DNA of 64,000 nucleotides from Mesaphorura yosii (lineage: Eukaryota; Arthropoda; Collembola; Poduromorpha; Tullbergiidae): contig WIXG01000163.1 of assembly GCA_009869945.1 (NCBI GenBank), positions 1-64,000 on the forward strand, given 5' to 3'. Both the position numbers and the translations under genes were made by a program. The notes beneath the pieces were generated by a model. It had not been told where the DNA came from and did not search any database. It saw only the letters and a list, made by a program, of their open reading frames with translations. How positions within the stretch are numbered: the first letter of the stretch is position 1; every line of letters starts with the position of its first letter. Shown one piece after another: positions 4,683 to 52,389 of the stretch.

Positions 4683-7600
4683 GTTCCTTGCCTGCGTCCT
4701 CTCCGTTCGAGTCTTCGCAACAAAGTGGCGGCGTGAACATTTCCCTGCGCGCGTTGAAACAGGTTGGTCGTTTGCGCAGAGACTTTGTCCTTGGCCGTCC
4801 TTCGCCTTCGCCTTCGCCTTGAACGCCCTGCAACTCAAACGAGTAGCAGCGAGCAATTGACAATGAAGATCCTGTCAAAAATAGTTTCACACGCCTGCCT
4901 GTTTGCTCTGGACAATTCCGCTCGCATAATTGGTTTAATGCTCATTCGCTAGTTAATTGACTGCGCAACCTTGCACCAGTGAGCCAATCGACTAGTTCGC
5001 CTCCAAACAGGCAGCCAGTATTCTTCCACAACAATTTGATGACTTGACTTGGGTGCTCGGCTGGCTGGCTTCTTTCCTCTTTCCTTCCCGCCAGCGCAGC
5101 AGTTGCACGTTGAGAGCACGTCCGTCCGTCGTCAAATCAAAGCGAGTAAAACAGGCGTACTGACTGCGCTGTCTCGTTAGTCTGACGGGAGAAGAACTCA
5201 TTAGCCACTGACAACTTCATCCACAGACGAATGGTCGGCAGGCTGGCAGGCAAGCACGCAGTTGATCCCACGCTCGCTCATTTCCCTAATCCACCAATCC
5301 AGGCTCCGTCCATCAATCAGCAACGCAAACGCAAGCGCAAATATTTGACTTTGACCGACAGCAGCAGCAGCAACAGCAGCCTTGAGACACTTTCCTCAAA
5401 AGCCGTCCAGCCCCTTACGCATTGACCGTTCGGTCCCTGTACAAAAGGGCCACTCCGATCTCCCTGGAATAGGCGGCTGGCGGCTGCCCGCCCGCCTGCC
5501 ATAATTGTAAATATAACCGAGACTGAGGTCGGAGATGGCAGCGTGGCAGTGTGCTTACGCCATGCAAACGGGATTCAACGGCTCGGACGTGCGCTGCTTC
5601 ATTTACTTCGTTCGGTTGATGGAAAGTGAAGGTGAAAGCAGAGTGAAAAGTTTATGGTATGGCTGCTGCGCGAGGCGAAGGTCACGTTCTTCTGGCAGGC
5701 AGCTCGGCCAGGCTGCCATGACGGTAGACATGACGCAACGAGTTTCTTGTTGCGTCTAATTGCAAAGTTGGGCGACAAATTACAGGAGCAGCGTTACTGG
5801 ATACAGCACGGCGGAGCACGTCACACGAGCGCAGGCAGTCACGGCGAGTTTTATGGGCCGAATATTTTATGAGCCGTCAACGCAAGCCAAGCCAAGCTAA
5901 ACGCTAACAAACTGAACTTTTCGTTCACACTTTTGGCCTGCAATAAAGAAGTGGGATGTTGGGAGCTTGCATCTGCCGTGTGCAGTTCGAAATAAATTTC
6001 TAATTAATTTATCTGCGAAATAAACTCCCAAATCTGCTCCTGCTTTATTGTGCTGGTGCTTCTCGCAGGCAAAAATCGAAAATCCAGTGCGGTGACTCTC
6101 CTCGCTTTAGGCTCCGCTTCTGGGCTGGCTTCTGGGCAAGCTTCTGGCTTCTGGGTATTCGCATTAAGACGCGTGTCCGCCTGGGCGTCTGGCGATGAAG
6201 GCTCGGAGTCCCGTCAGCTAATGAGACCACCTGTCAATAAGTCGACTGTTCTGCTCGTGACAGGACAAGCCAAGGCAAACAGCTCATTTTGCTGGGCGCT
6301 GAATGCTGGCCTGGGGATGGCGCGTGTTTGTTTGCTTGCTTGCTGTTCCTGAGTCGCAGTCTTAGTCGCAGTCACAGGGGCATAAATCACTCGAGAGTTC
6401 TGCTCAATTCTCGCTACTCGCTTGCTGTGCAGCGTGCGTTGGTTGAGAACGATTAACTTTTCATGTACCAATTTCCGAGGCGCGTGCCGACTTTAAAATG
6501 CGAAATGCCAATGCAATGCAATGCGGAGTTTGTTTGCTTTTCTCGTACACGTATAAGCGTATTGCTTACAGAACTCTTTGAGTTTGAGTGGGAATTCCAT
6601 TAGCAACTATCCACTATCGATCCAGCCGCGACTCGACTATCGCAGATTGCATGCCGAACGAACGACAGACGACGAAGGAGCTGATGCTGCTGTTGAGTTT
6701 AGTTTACGAGGACAGTTTGATCAGCCACAACTCAGGCTCATGTCCGACTCCAATTCGGAGCGGGTGCGAATGTCAACACGAACGAACGGGGTCGTCAGCT
6801 GACAAGCGAGTCACGGCCACACCATAAAATCGACAAAGAAATGCGGGGCACCACACGACAGCTTTCAGCTTTCGCTCTTAACGTTCACGCACCGGAGGCT
6901 GTCGCATTCCAAAGAAAAAAAAGCCGTGAAGAAAGCGCGAGAAAGCGAAAACAGCCTGGCCGTGGCTTAGCGTGGCGTGGTGTGACGTTTTCCATCTTTC
7001 TTTCTGGAGGCTAATCGTTGCTTGCTTGCTTCGTTGTTGGTGTCCCACGAGAAACGACGCTCGATTTGCCTTGCCATTTGCATCCGCTCAGGAGCCAATT
7101 TAGTCTGCAGCAACAACAGCACAGGATTGCGCGTTGAAGGTTGCTCGTGTGATGAGTCGACTAATGCGCCACAGTTAATCCAAATTGGAATCTGATGCTG
7201 AGAAGCAATAGCGGAGGAGCAGTGCGGGTGCGGGCCCGCGTGGGAAGCGCCAAGCGCGTTACCCGCCTCAGTGCAGTTCAGTGCACACGGTTCACAAAGC
7301 TCGTACAACGCCGTAGCGTAAACTCCGCACAAACGCGGGCTTCATCAATTCGAAGCTGCCAAGACGCCGCACCGAATCGGAATGACAAAGCAAGACAAGC
7401 ACGAAACACGAAATGCAGGAAAAGAAAATTCCAATTTGGCGATGTACGACTGTTTACTCGGTTTGACTGGTTCGCTGAAGCTTAGCAGATGGCCAATGTC
7501 ACTCTCAAGGCTGGGCCCACGGTGGCTCACGGCCCACCTGCACTAAAACAACTCCTCCACTCCGCTGGCTTGCCTCGTAAACGTCCGGTCCAGTGCATCC

Positions 7601-47913: not shown

Positions 47914-50900
47914 ATGATCCGACACATTTCACGGCATGCCATGCTGGTGGTGTTGGTCATCTTCTCCCTATCCGCTCATGCAGCAGTCACGCCTAATCCA
48001 GCTCTCGTAAGCTTGACGCTTCTCTGCTTAACTCCTAGGTTGAGGCGTTCTAATTTTGGCACACGCTTCTGATTTAAGCTTGGCGTTTCTTACATTTGCC
48101 CTGCTCCACATTACAATTCCACTGCGAATGGTGCATTTCCACATGAAACCGATTGCGAGTACCTTTACGACTGTTGGGAAGGTGACGCAACACTTGGAGT
48201 CTGCACTGACATGGAATTATTTGACCTGAGGTGGGAAGGATGCAATATAGCAGAGGACGTTGATTGTGGAGACAGGGTACGACCAACAGGCTACCCGGGC
48301 ACAATCACACCACCAATGACGGAGCCCACGGTGAACCTATCCGCTCCTACAATTGGACCAAGCACTTTGACGGAACCTAGTACAATTATTAAGACAGAAG
48401 AATCACCTGATATTGTAGAATGTCCCAGCGAGGAGGCCGTGATCCCACATTGGAATTGCTCCCTGTATTGGTATTGTTTAGATGGCATACCGTTATTACT
48501 AGTAAGGCTAACCTATTAATTGGTCCCTTTTACTTTCATTCTCTAATCTTGAATGTGTTACAGGAATGCCCACCCCAATTATACTTCAATCCAAGGGCTC
48601 TTTTTTGTGATTATATGGATCAAGTCCCCGAATGTCAGGGAGGTAAGAATTTTAGCAATGTATCTCGCCAGTGAACATCAGAATGGTACATTTCTAGGTA
48701 CCAGACCTCCTGATGAATCAACCAGAACCACGATTGAGGACCAGACAACAACACAGGATCCTTCGACAACGAAAGATCACACCACGACAATGGAGGACCC
48801 CACAACGACGACAGAAGAACCCACCACGACTACAGAGGATCCGACCACAACTACAGAGGAAGCAAAAACTACGACAGAAGATTCCACAACCCCAACGGAG
48901 GACCTCACCACTACGACAGCGGGAGACCCCACGACCATTACTGAGGAGCCTACGACAAATGATTCTACAACGCCCGAGCCCAGTACCACGACACAGAACA
49001 CAGTGACCACTGAAGACGCCAGTAGCCCCAGCACAAGTACCCTAGACCCAAGTATAGCTACAGGCGGGCCCTCTACAACTACCAACGAGCCTACGACTGA
49101 AGAACCTGCAATCCCCACCACACCCGAAGTAACAACGACGACGGAAGATCTACGACCACCAGGTAAGGACACATTGAAGGAGCAAGGAGCACCAGTTTGA
49201 TTGCAAGATATTTATGAAACGAGCTTTTTAGATTGCAGTGATCGCGACAAGTACAACGTGTTGTACGAAGCTCAAGCTGGAGAGTACGGCCGACACCGGT
49301 GTCCAGGTGTGAATTCAATGGGCATGACTTCTTGGTACTGCCTCCCAGAGGGTGGAGTGTTCAATGGCTCTAATCCAGACTACAGTAATTGTCGGAGTTC
49401 ATGGCTGGGTGATATTGAGAAGGAAGTGGAAGAGGGTGCTCCTATCAACTCAACCGTCGCTGAACAACTTTTGCAGTCAATGCAAGAGAATGTGCAAAAG
49501 GCTGCAGACAACTACACAGGTGAAGTTACGTATTTTGGACATGAAATTCAAAAGCTCTTCTTTTTGGGCCAACAAATTCTGGCGCTCGTCACTGATGCAA
49601 CGGATTTGACGCAGTTGGAAGTACTCGCAGGGAACACGGTTCAAATATTTGAGGACATTCTGAGTTTTGAAGACCCCTGGCATGAATTGGAGCCTCCTGA
49701 GCGTTCGGAGGCTGTGACAAGTTTCCTAACCGCGTGTAACAATAATGGAATTCGTTTGGGTAACAAATACAAGAACGAATCTGTGCCACGAGCATGGGGG
49801 GCTGTAGCGACTGATCCATACAGAAAAATATACGATGGGGCACGCCAGTTTGAACTGATGGCCAGCATGGAAGCGACGTCGGTAGAAAATCCGAATTCGG
49901 TGATATTTCCAGAAGACATGAGCCCGGCAAGGATTCTCATATTGCCCTGCCAACTGATTGGGTCTCCTATTTCCCTGGGCAGGAACACGTCTCATTTGCG
50001 GGCCTTAGCCTGGACGCCGAATACGTGAACAAACTCCTGCCACCTGAGGGGGAGCGCAAAATCGTGAACGGGCCACTGATGTCATTTGCATTTGACGAGA
50101 CCACCAGAGCAGCAGCAGCAGCCGAAGGCTCTCGGGTGGCAATCTCCATCCAACATGATGTCCCAGCCTGGGGAGAGCAATCCTACAAAATCAGACGACG
50201 ACTTCATCCTGGAGAACGACCTCAAGCTGTACTCGATTCTGCACGTTGTGTATTCTGGCACACGGCCCACCTTCAATGGTCCAGTTCTGGTTGCTGGTTG
50301 ACCCTTCGTGGATCCACGCGTCCAGAGACAGTATGCGAATGTAACCACTTGACATCCTTTGCGGTCATCATGGACATGCATGAGTACGTGGGGAAAGAGA
50401 AGGTCTTGGAGATCCTGACACTCATTCTCAGTCCGCTGTCCATTCTGGCGCTAGCAACCTCCATCTTTGTTTTTGTCTACAATGGTCGACGTGGGGGTCA
50501 TGGGAGTGGTCGATCACAGCTCGTATCAAGTCACCCACGTAATGAACTCACACTCCACCTTTGAATCGCTCTGCTAGTCGCGAACGTCCTCATCCTGGTC
50601 GCAATGGACCAAAAATTACCTCCACTTATCTGAGGCGGGGTGTGCAGCCTCGGCAATTGCTCTACACTACGCGCTTCTTTGTGCATTCACGTGGATGACA
50701 CTAGAGGGTGTCCTACTCGCAAGAAGGCTTTTTATCGACGTTTATCATAGGGGACACGAACGCCGAGCCTTGTATTGGGTCGCAGGTTATCTTCTACCCG
50801 CTATAATTGTGGGGGCAACGCGCGCGGTGAATTACGCACGTGCAAATGACGACGAACCCTCTGCTTATGGGAAAGACGAATTCTGTTGGCTTCATGGGGA

Positions 50901-51327
50901 TTACTTGTGGGCCTTCATTGGACCAGTTGCCCTAGCAGTTGCGTTTAATACGATCGTACTCTCTGCGTCCATTCGTAAATCGTACAGGCTTCAATACTAC
51001 TCGAAGGTTGCAGTCAAGCGTGAAGCGAAATCTGTAAGATTCTTGATTCAAGGTTCAATGAATCTAACTGCGATCATGGGACTGACTTGGGTTTTCGGGT
51101 TCTTGATGCTTATACGCAACGTAAACGTGGCCCGCTTTGAAGCGTACGTGTTTACATTATTCAATGCGAGTCAGGGGCTGTTATCTTCATATTTCATGTT
51201 GCATCCAATAAGAAGGTTCGGTCACACTTCTCCAGTATGGTCAGCCGGTCAAGATCGGATGGTAAGGGAGAAACAGGCACAACAAATGCAAGTAAATATT
51301 CGAGAAAAACATCACGACCTAATCTAA
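47914..51327 (+). CDS. Adhesion GPCR with two chitin-binding domains; frame broken in the C-terminal half
   Basis: Exons 47914-48006, 48079-48501, 48564-48642, 48698-49162 and 49232 onward join in phase. Order: signal peptide (residues 1-23); CBM14/peritrophin-A domain 38-94 with six Cys spaced 18-5-9-12-7; a second CBM14 domain 146-196 (11-5-9-12-8); a Thr/Pro/Glu mucin-like stalk to about 350; a hormone-receptor motif (DCSDRDKYN to NCRSSW); a GAIN region; a GPS motif (CVFW, GCW, CECNHLTSFAV, cleavage expected between L and T); and seven membrane segments (SPLSILALATSIFVFVY to QGLLSSYFMLHPIRR). The extracellular part would bind chitin in cuticle or peritrophic matrix. Downstream the frame breaks near 49921, probably twice within 50155-50245, at an in-frame TGA (50562-50564, TM2) and near the A5 run at 50611. 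It is either a recent pseudogene or locally mis-sequenced. Confidence 0.75.
48715..49150 (+). repeat. Degenerate Thr-rich codon repeat encoding a mucin-like stalk
   Basis: About 145 codons of imperfect units such as EDPTTTTEEP and EDPTTTT encode a Thr/Pro/Glu-rich linker in exon 4 of the adhesion GPCR. Such stretches are normally densely O-glycosylated and length-variable. Confidence 0.8.
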
Positions 51328-52389
51328 GTCGTTAAAAATTTTAAAATGTCACAAAGAGCAATTAAATTGTCCAGACAAATTTTGTCCATTAGCTGAAAAC
51401 ATTGTTGACGATTTGGTCGTACTTGGATTTGTGAATTTTTAAACCCTATTCACTGATTGAATGGTCGAATGTTTGATGTCAGGTTTCAGATTGAGAATGT
51501 CTTTGAATCGAATGGAAGCGGACATTTTCTACCGTTCTTCGCTTTAGTTTGGGCTACCCGTTGATTGGAATCCAAAGACACAACAATCGTTGACAAAATC
51601 AAAATGAAAGATAGTCTTATATATTGTTGTATTCCTCATCAATATTTCGTACTGTATTTTCTTGTTATGCTTTGGTTGGCCGTACACACCTGCGGACACA
51701 AGACATTTCTGGACAATTAAAGATATTTGTTCATGCTACTCTCATCGTGCTTGCATATGGATGCTCAGCACAGAGAAGGGAGAGGAATTCTTCATATTTA
51801 TCAAACTACTTGAAAGTCTAAGTCTGATGACGATGACCAGTGCCGGTAGTACAGTTACAACGGTTCATAAGCGTGAGAAACAGACACGCCTATTCCAAGC
51901 AATATATTGGGGTCTTACAACAATTCATGCTTGTGGAATCTTGACTGGCTTTCTCAACAAACGGGCTCCATTTCATCTCGATTCTTTTCTTCCCGAACAG
52001 TGTACATAGGTCATTTTTCTTCATTTTCCTCCTTTTCAGGTCGCTTGGTGATTGGACGTTAATTTGGACTCAGTTCACAGTTTCTCTCACGCTTGTCCCT
52101 CGTGGAGGCAGACATGATTATAAATCAACTGATTTTGCACTTTAATCAGTGGTTTGATTAACGAAAACTGTCAAATTAGTAGAGTCGAGTCGTTTGAGAT
52201 GCAAACGATCCATGAAAGTAACGTGAAGATGAAGAAAAGTCACGTTTTCTTTTATAATCCTAGTTTTTGAAAGTAAACAGTGGCCATTCGGACTGGCTAG
52301 GGGCCGTATTTGCGAAAACAATTGCTACAGACTTGCGATCGCTCTGGCAACTCCAAAATAACAGACCTCTGTTAACTACAGACTTAACA
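51328..52389. other. Spacer after the adhesion GPCR, no gene seen
   Basis: ORFs present on both strands lack family-like content. No clear poly(A) signal for the GPCR was found. Confidence 0.35.

Follow-up and report, generated by a model that had tools for sequence, protein, structure and literature searches.

A possibly head-swapped adhesion GPCR gene with two CBM14 domains and a broken reading frame in Mesaphorura yosii

Introduction

Adhesion GPCRs are thought to sense force through an anchored N-terminus, and to our knowledge few have a defined solid as their anchor. A receptor with a CBM14 head would be tied to chitin, a main polymer of the cuticle and the gut lining, and would offer a simple assay. 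A sequence-only reading of a 64,000-nucleotide stretch of the collembolan Mesaphorura yosii (contig WIXG01000163.1, assembly GCA_009869945.1; hereafter the window) had joined five exons at 47914-51327 into such a receptor and had suggested that it reads the state of a chitin matrix. The question raised by this locus is whether it is a working chitin-reading receptor, a receptor that has been lost, or two adjacent genes taken for a single one.

The latrophilin/CIRL-type adhesion GPCRs resemble the locus in its putative hormone-receptor motif (HRM) and GAIN domain, its GPS and its seven-segment membrane region (7TM), and in the mechanosensing on an anchored N-terminus that it would be expected to show, but their heads consist of RBL/olfactomedin domains and contain neither CBM14 nor kelch domains. 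The sequence-only reading knew of no described receptor with a CBM14-headed architecture, and none was found in the accessible parts of the literature searched, which was mostly non-subscription, so that this is weak evidence of novelty. The same holds for the kelch-headed adhesion GPCRs presented below, for which no description was found in the accessible parts of the same literature. Neither architecture is described in the parts available of PMC13322756, PMC8418000, PMC12492102 and PMC7379565. The available text of PMC12716839 does not mention kelch, chitin or CBM, that of PMC2396169 does not mention kelch, chitin or peritrophin, and that of PMC6208332 treats an adhesion GPCR as distinct from the kelch genes.

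Materials and methods

The genome searched comprises 93 Mb in 1127 contigs and contains 51 matches to 7tm_2 on 28 contigs, from which 20 regions on 18 contigs were compared with the locus. Intact reading frames were assessed with a spliced aligner that allows introns, using as query the 708-residue HRM-to-tail protein of contig C464. Ten close paralogues, including C464 itself, were defined as those of the 13 regions with any HRM-GAIN match in which the start of the HRM exon was well matched. The genome search for CBM_14 yielded at least 144 matches, with the best 150 of 207 candidates scored; CBM14 domains that are split by introns could escape such searches.

Results

Layout of the locus

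The locus at 47914-51335 on the forward strand runs from two CBM_14 domains through a stalk rich in Thr and an HRM-like exon to a GPS and then a 7tm_2 region. The features are:

47914..48006, + strand: exon 1, with the start codon and, judged by eye, a probable signal peptide; donor GTAAGCTT
48079..48501, + strand: exon 2, first CBM_14 (Pfam 48121-48267), linker and start of the second CBM_14
48564..48642, + strand: exon 3, remainder of the second CBM_14 (about 48421-48635 over exons 2 and 3; Pfam, residues 146-196 of the joined exons)
48698..49162, + strand: exon 4, Thr-rich mucin-like stalk, from the translation
49232..49929, + strand: beginning of exon 5, with an HRM-like domain (about 49264-49398) and the initial part of GAIN; frame open until the first lesion
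49920..49932 (approximate), + strand: frame lesion 1, within GAIN (alignment to C464, spliced aligner)
49932..50561, + strand: remainder of GAIN, GPS (50244-50369, HL/T point at 50351/50352) and first membrane segment
50562..50564, + strand: TGA stop in frame, at the position of a Cys codon in C464
50565..50630, + strand: second membrane segment and frame lesion 2, near 50609 (alignment to C464, spliced aligner)
50611..51180, + strand: membrane segments 3-6 and start of segment 7 (7tm_2, Pfam E 7.1e-30; borders by eye)
51175..51190, near 51179-51182, + strand: frame lesion 3, within segment 7 (alignment to C464, spliced aligner)
51183..51335, + strand: remainder of segment 7, then the cytoplasmic tail and a TAA stop at 51333-51335; identical to C464 at 43 of 49 aligned residues

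The first four exons lie where the sequence-only reading had placed them, with GT/AG sites and running phases of 0, 0, 1 and 1. Likewise, its two CBM14 domains were recovered by Pfam as two stretches in the joined exons (CBM_14, E 1.5e-18), each with six Cys by reading, and the first of them was also found in the six-frame genome search (E 1.0e-5). Chitin binding by these domains is putative. The Thr-rich stalk is present in the translation of exon 4, which matches the beginning of the C464 stalk (74.5% DNA identity over 102 bases of low complexity). A splice between exons 3 and 4 is predicted; if exon 3 is left unspliced at 48643, its frame runs into a stop at 48672-48674.

The receptor half begins with exon 5, the start of which is 60% identical to C464 over 227 residues, and the intron before the HRM occupies the same place and phase in both copies. 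The proposed hormone-receptor motif corresponds to an HRM-like exon, at a score (19.1 bits, E 0.0018) that does not reach the Pfam cut-off of 26.2. Only one of six scanned copies, C1065 (29.5 bits), exceeds this cut-off, C464 scores 15.7, and the window copy is absent from the matches listed by the whole-genome HRM profile search. The Cys and Trp columns of the region are invariant in eleven family copies. The putative GAIN region gave no Pfam match in the window pieces nor in C464 and aligns with the paralogues. The GPS was confirmed (Pfam E 5.5e-13), with CNHLTSF read in the sequence and the HL/T at 50351/50352, which we take to be the cleavage point. The 7tm_2 match spans profile positions 71-249 only, and segments 1 and 2 were placed by the alignment to C464, to which the stretch with segments 3-6 and the start of segment 7 (50611..51180) is 64% identical over 198 residues. 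The 7tm_2 homology is real, but the seven membrane segments exist only as pieces across two frames. Homology to C464 moves the end of the gene from 51327 to 51335, and an ATTAAA at 51361 is the first AATAAA or ATTAAA past 48401.

A broken receptor frame

Exon 5 had been read as one open frame over 49232-51327. This does not hold, since a frame read from its start stops at 50026-50028. The receptor half instead passes through frames 1, 0, 1 and 0 in succession, and the stretch from GAIN to 7TM contains three frameshifts and one TGA in total. Introns were considered as the cause of the frame changes and rejected: the aligner placed introns in the paralogues and still needed frameshifts here. The product of the proposed splicing would be 618 residues long and would end before the GPS and any membrane segment. 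As read from the sequence, it is possibly a secreted, chitin-binding, mucin-like protein of CBM14 domains, stalk and HRM without membrane segments. A stop in the last exon lets a message escape decay, and this could apply here because the stop of the 618-residue frame lies in the last exon.

Kelch-headed relatives of the receptor half

The receptor half is most closely related to C464, with which it shares 65.2% identity over 679 residues. The two copies are sisters in the tree with a support of 0.994, and both are without introns at query positions 361, 553 and 573, which are present in five, eight and six of the nine other close paralogues, respectively.

Like the locus, the receptors on C464, C543, C810 and other contigs have a Thr-rich stalk, an HRM-like domain, a putative GAIN region, a GPS and a 7TM, but their head consists of kelch repeats, whereas the locus has two CBM14 domains and a broken frame. 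Kelch repeats were identified with Pfam upstream of the stalk in all nine close paralogues with a head on the contig, eight of them above the curated cut-off and C264 slightly under it (E 6.7e-8); the contig of C1065 stops within the stalk. The frame is continuous from kelch to HRM in five of these heads and interrupted by an intron in three, and in C559 kelch and stalk lie in different frames. In that receptor (L030, about 6201-6250), the kelch and stalk frames overlap, which may reflect a small intron or a lesion. The plan of the family is a signal peptide, apparently one or two kelch propellers, a Ser/Thr stalk, HRM, GAIN, GPS and 7TM, and regions L021, L026, L027, L030, L032, L033, L037, L038 and L039 belong to it. 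The relatives thereby point to an expanded kelch-headed receptor family. No kelch remnant was found in the window, the best match to the C464 kelch having an E of 6.8.

Secreted relatives of the head

Among the loci compared, those closest to the first CBM14 exon are C963 (74% DNA and 80% amino-acid identity over 71 residues) and then C768 (58% amino-acid identity over 71 residues), which contain five and two CBM_14 matches, respectively. C768 resembles the locus in its order of CBM14, Thr-rich linker and CBM14, and exon 1 is similar to the first exon in C963 (...SVTHNPVL and ...AVTPNPAL, compared by eye). In contrast to the locus, the frames in C963 and C768 stop a few residues past the last CBM14, and no 7tm_2 match occurs on either contig. 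Exon 2 and C963 differ with a pN of 0.119 and a pS of 0.744 over 70 codons. At window positions 48097-48120, the first CBM14 domain has its first Cys at another place than C963 and C768 do, with one Cys gained and one lost, so that six are kept.

The sequence-only reading had held that orthologues with the CBM14 and the 7TM exons in separate genes would speak against it. Within the same genome this is partly what we see, in C963 and C768 on the one hand and C464 on the other. Taken together, the kelch repeats on all nine paralogue heads and the grouping of the CBM14 exons with C963 and C768 indicate either that the locus is a chimera with a swapped head or that two genes have been read as one.

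Lesions and constraint

The ten close paralogues have 35 introns and neither frameshifts nor stops over 652-708 aligned residues each, that is, no lesion in 6806 codons as compared with four in 680 codons of the window copy. With equal rates, the probability that all four would fall in the window copy is about 7e-5. Of the 35 introns, six occur in only one close paralogue, and such an intron can hide a lesion. Among five more distant copies aligned in the same manner, three copies on C117 show no lesion (665, 639 and 668 aligned residues) and a fourth has one frameshift (654 residues). The fifth, on the minus strand of C989 (L028), has two frameshifts and a stop over 632 aligned residues with large, doubtful introns, and is possibly a second broken copy. 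The lesion calls in the distant copies are weaker because their identity to the query is only 35-46%. When these copies are added, the window copy, with 680 of 10744 codons, accounts for four of eight lesions, for which the chance is about 1e-3. The window copy is thus not the sole possibly broken one in the wider family, and the pattern fits either gene loss in the family or scattered assembly errors.

Between the window copy and C464, pN is 0.214 and pS 0.763; synonymous sites are saturated and provide no dating. At 383 conserved sites where the other paralogues mostly agree, 36 changes are confined to the window copy, 30 to C464 and 70 are found in both, and at the 135 sites where the other paralogues fully agree, each copy has nine changes of its own. 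The dN to C543 is 0.439 for the window copy and 0.479 for C464. Counted by segment between the lesions, window-only and C464-only changes number 10/3 (before the first lesion), 11/11, 1/4, 14/10 and 0/2, and the tree branch is longer for the window copy (0.341) than for C464 (0.269). The receptor half is therefore about as constrained as the intact C464, also beyond the last lesion, which implies either a recent break or a local assembly error. Judging from these substitutions, it seems to have remained under constraint up to a recent time, any acceleration having been mild at most.

Discussion

A proposed head swap in a receptor gene and a probable recent loss of its frame

Our favored hypothesis, held at roughly even probability, is that of an adhesion GPCR gene with a swapped head whose reading frame was lost recently, and the sequenced copy is most likely a young pseudogene or a null allele. 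With the receptor half broken at four places, a recently lost receptor is likelier than a working chitin sensor. Of the chitin-reading receptor proposed earlier, the domain order is thus right, but three frameshifts and a stop preclude a receptor from the sequenced copy. A longer window branch, the 10 versus 3 changes before the first lesion and the lesions in C989 and C117 count against this hypothesis, and so does the C464-like constraint, which would also be compatible with a functional gene that is locally misassembled.

Such a working CBM14-headed adhesion GPCR, with all four lesions introduced by the assembly, is the strongest competitor, although we consider it rather unlikely. It would explain why the GAIN-to-7TM half is about as constrained as in C464, with 43 of 49 residues still matching past the last lesion, and why the first CBM14 domain is constrained at the pN and pS given above and has kept six Cys in spite of its moved first Cys; moreover, two of the lesions adjoin short runs of A or T. 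However, the same assembly yielded clean frames in all ten close paralogues, albeit with lesions in two of the five distant copies, and one of the four lesions is a substitution that creates a stop codon and not an indel. The loci compared included no second, near-identical copy against which the sequence could be checked.

It is improbable that the locus consists of two genes, a working secreted protein with two CBM14 domains ending at 48674 and behind it a headless, decaying copy of a kelch receptor, for while the C963 and C768 frames end in the same manner on contigs with no 7tm_2 match, the unspliced exon 3 frame has its stop there and the receptor half is broken, there is no AATAAA or ATTAAA from 48401 until 51361, splice sites in phase are available at 48643/48697, and the persisting constraint on the receptor half would be unexpected in a long-headless copy. 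The same unspliced stop, together with the low complexity of the stalk match, counts against the head swap.

The history that we propose for the head-swapped gene would start with a duplicated kelch-headed receptor that is the sister of C464. Its kelch repeats would have been replaced by the signal peptide and the two CBM14 domains of a secreted protein of the C963/C768 type, joined via the Thr-rich stalk, and in the simplest history this would have happened after the window and C464 copies had split. The homologies of both parts are seen directly; we infer the joining event and the splice between exons 3 and 4. From general knowledge of the receptor family, the CBM14 domains of the intact form would anchor the N-terminal fragment to chitin, the GAIN domain would cleave itself at HL/T, and a pull, a release or a loss of the matrix would expose the tethered agonist TSFAVIMDM and thereby drive the 7TM. 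Surface expression, autocleavage and signalling of the intact form would be expected by analogy. The three frameshifts and the stop would then have prevented a receptor in the sequenced copy. Even in its broken state, the locus, together with its relatives, suggests that heads have been swapped between receptors and secreted chitin-binding proteins.

Possible exchange of kelch, CBM14 and receptor modules

Proteins with kelch and then CBM14 in a single open reading frame were found on at least six contigs. Two of these were confirmed with Pfam (L049, C1034:9000-10700, and L050, C507:5200-6900), and C919, C880, C298 and C442 have kelch and CBM_14 matches on the same strand about 1 kb apart, in open frames of equal length. 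The C1034 kelch domain is 35% identical over 261 residues (E 1e-40) to the kelch head of the receptor on C536, which is within the range of 23-42% for pairs of receptor kelch heads among the matches listed. The best match to the C507 kelch domain among those listed is C559 (27% over 227 residues). These proteins suggest that kelch, CBM14 and receptor modules have been exchanged in this lineage, which makes a head swap less odd. They also hint that the kelch-headed receptors may work near chitin. One speculative and rather doubtful extension is a whole set of receptors reading the chitin matrix, with kelch heads related to the kelch domains of the secreted kelch-CBM14 proteins and one CBM14-headed member that is intact in other individuals or species.

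Among the matches listed, three of the 28 contigs with 7tm_2 also contain CBM_14, namely the window's own, C80 and C559. These searches did not reveal a second CBM14-headed receptor: the two domains on C80 are 22 kb apart, and on C559 the CBM_14 is on the opposite strand and the receptor is kelch-headed. A local CBM14 model (10 training sequences, one from the wrong strand), which covered regions on 18 of the 27 other 7tm_2 contigs, again identified C559 among the compared loci, along with weak matches in L022 (E 0.94) and on the minus strand inside the window (E 0.0097). The C559 frame, on the minus strand at 4130-4462 of L030, lies head to head with the kelch-headed receptor, about 0.8 kb upstream of it. 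The genome furthermore contains 66 matches to Chitin_bind_4.
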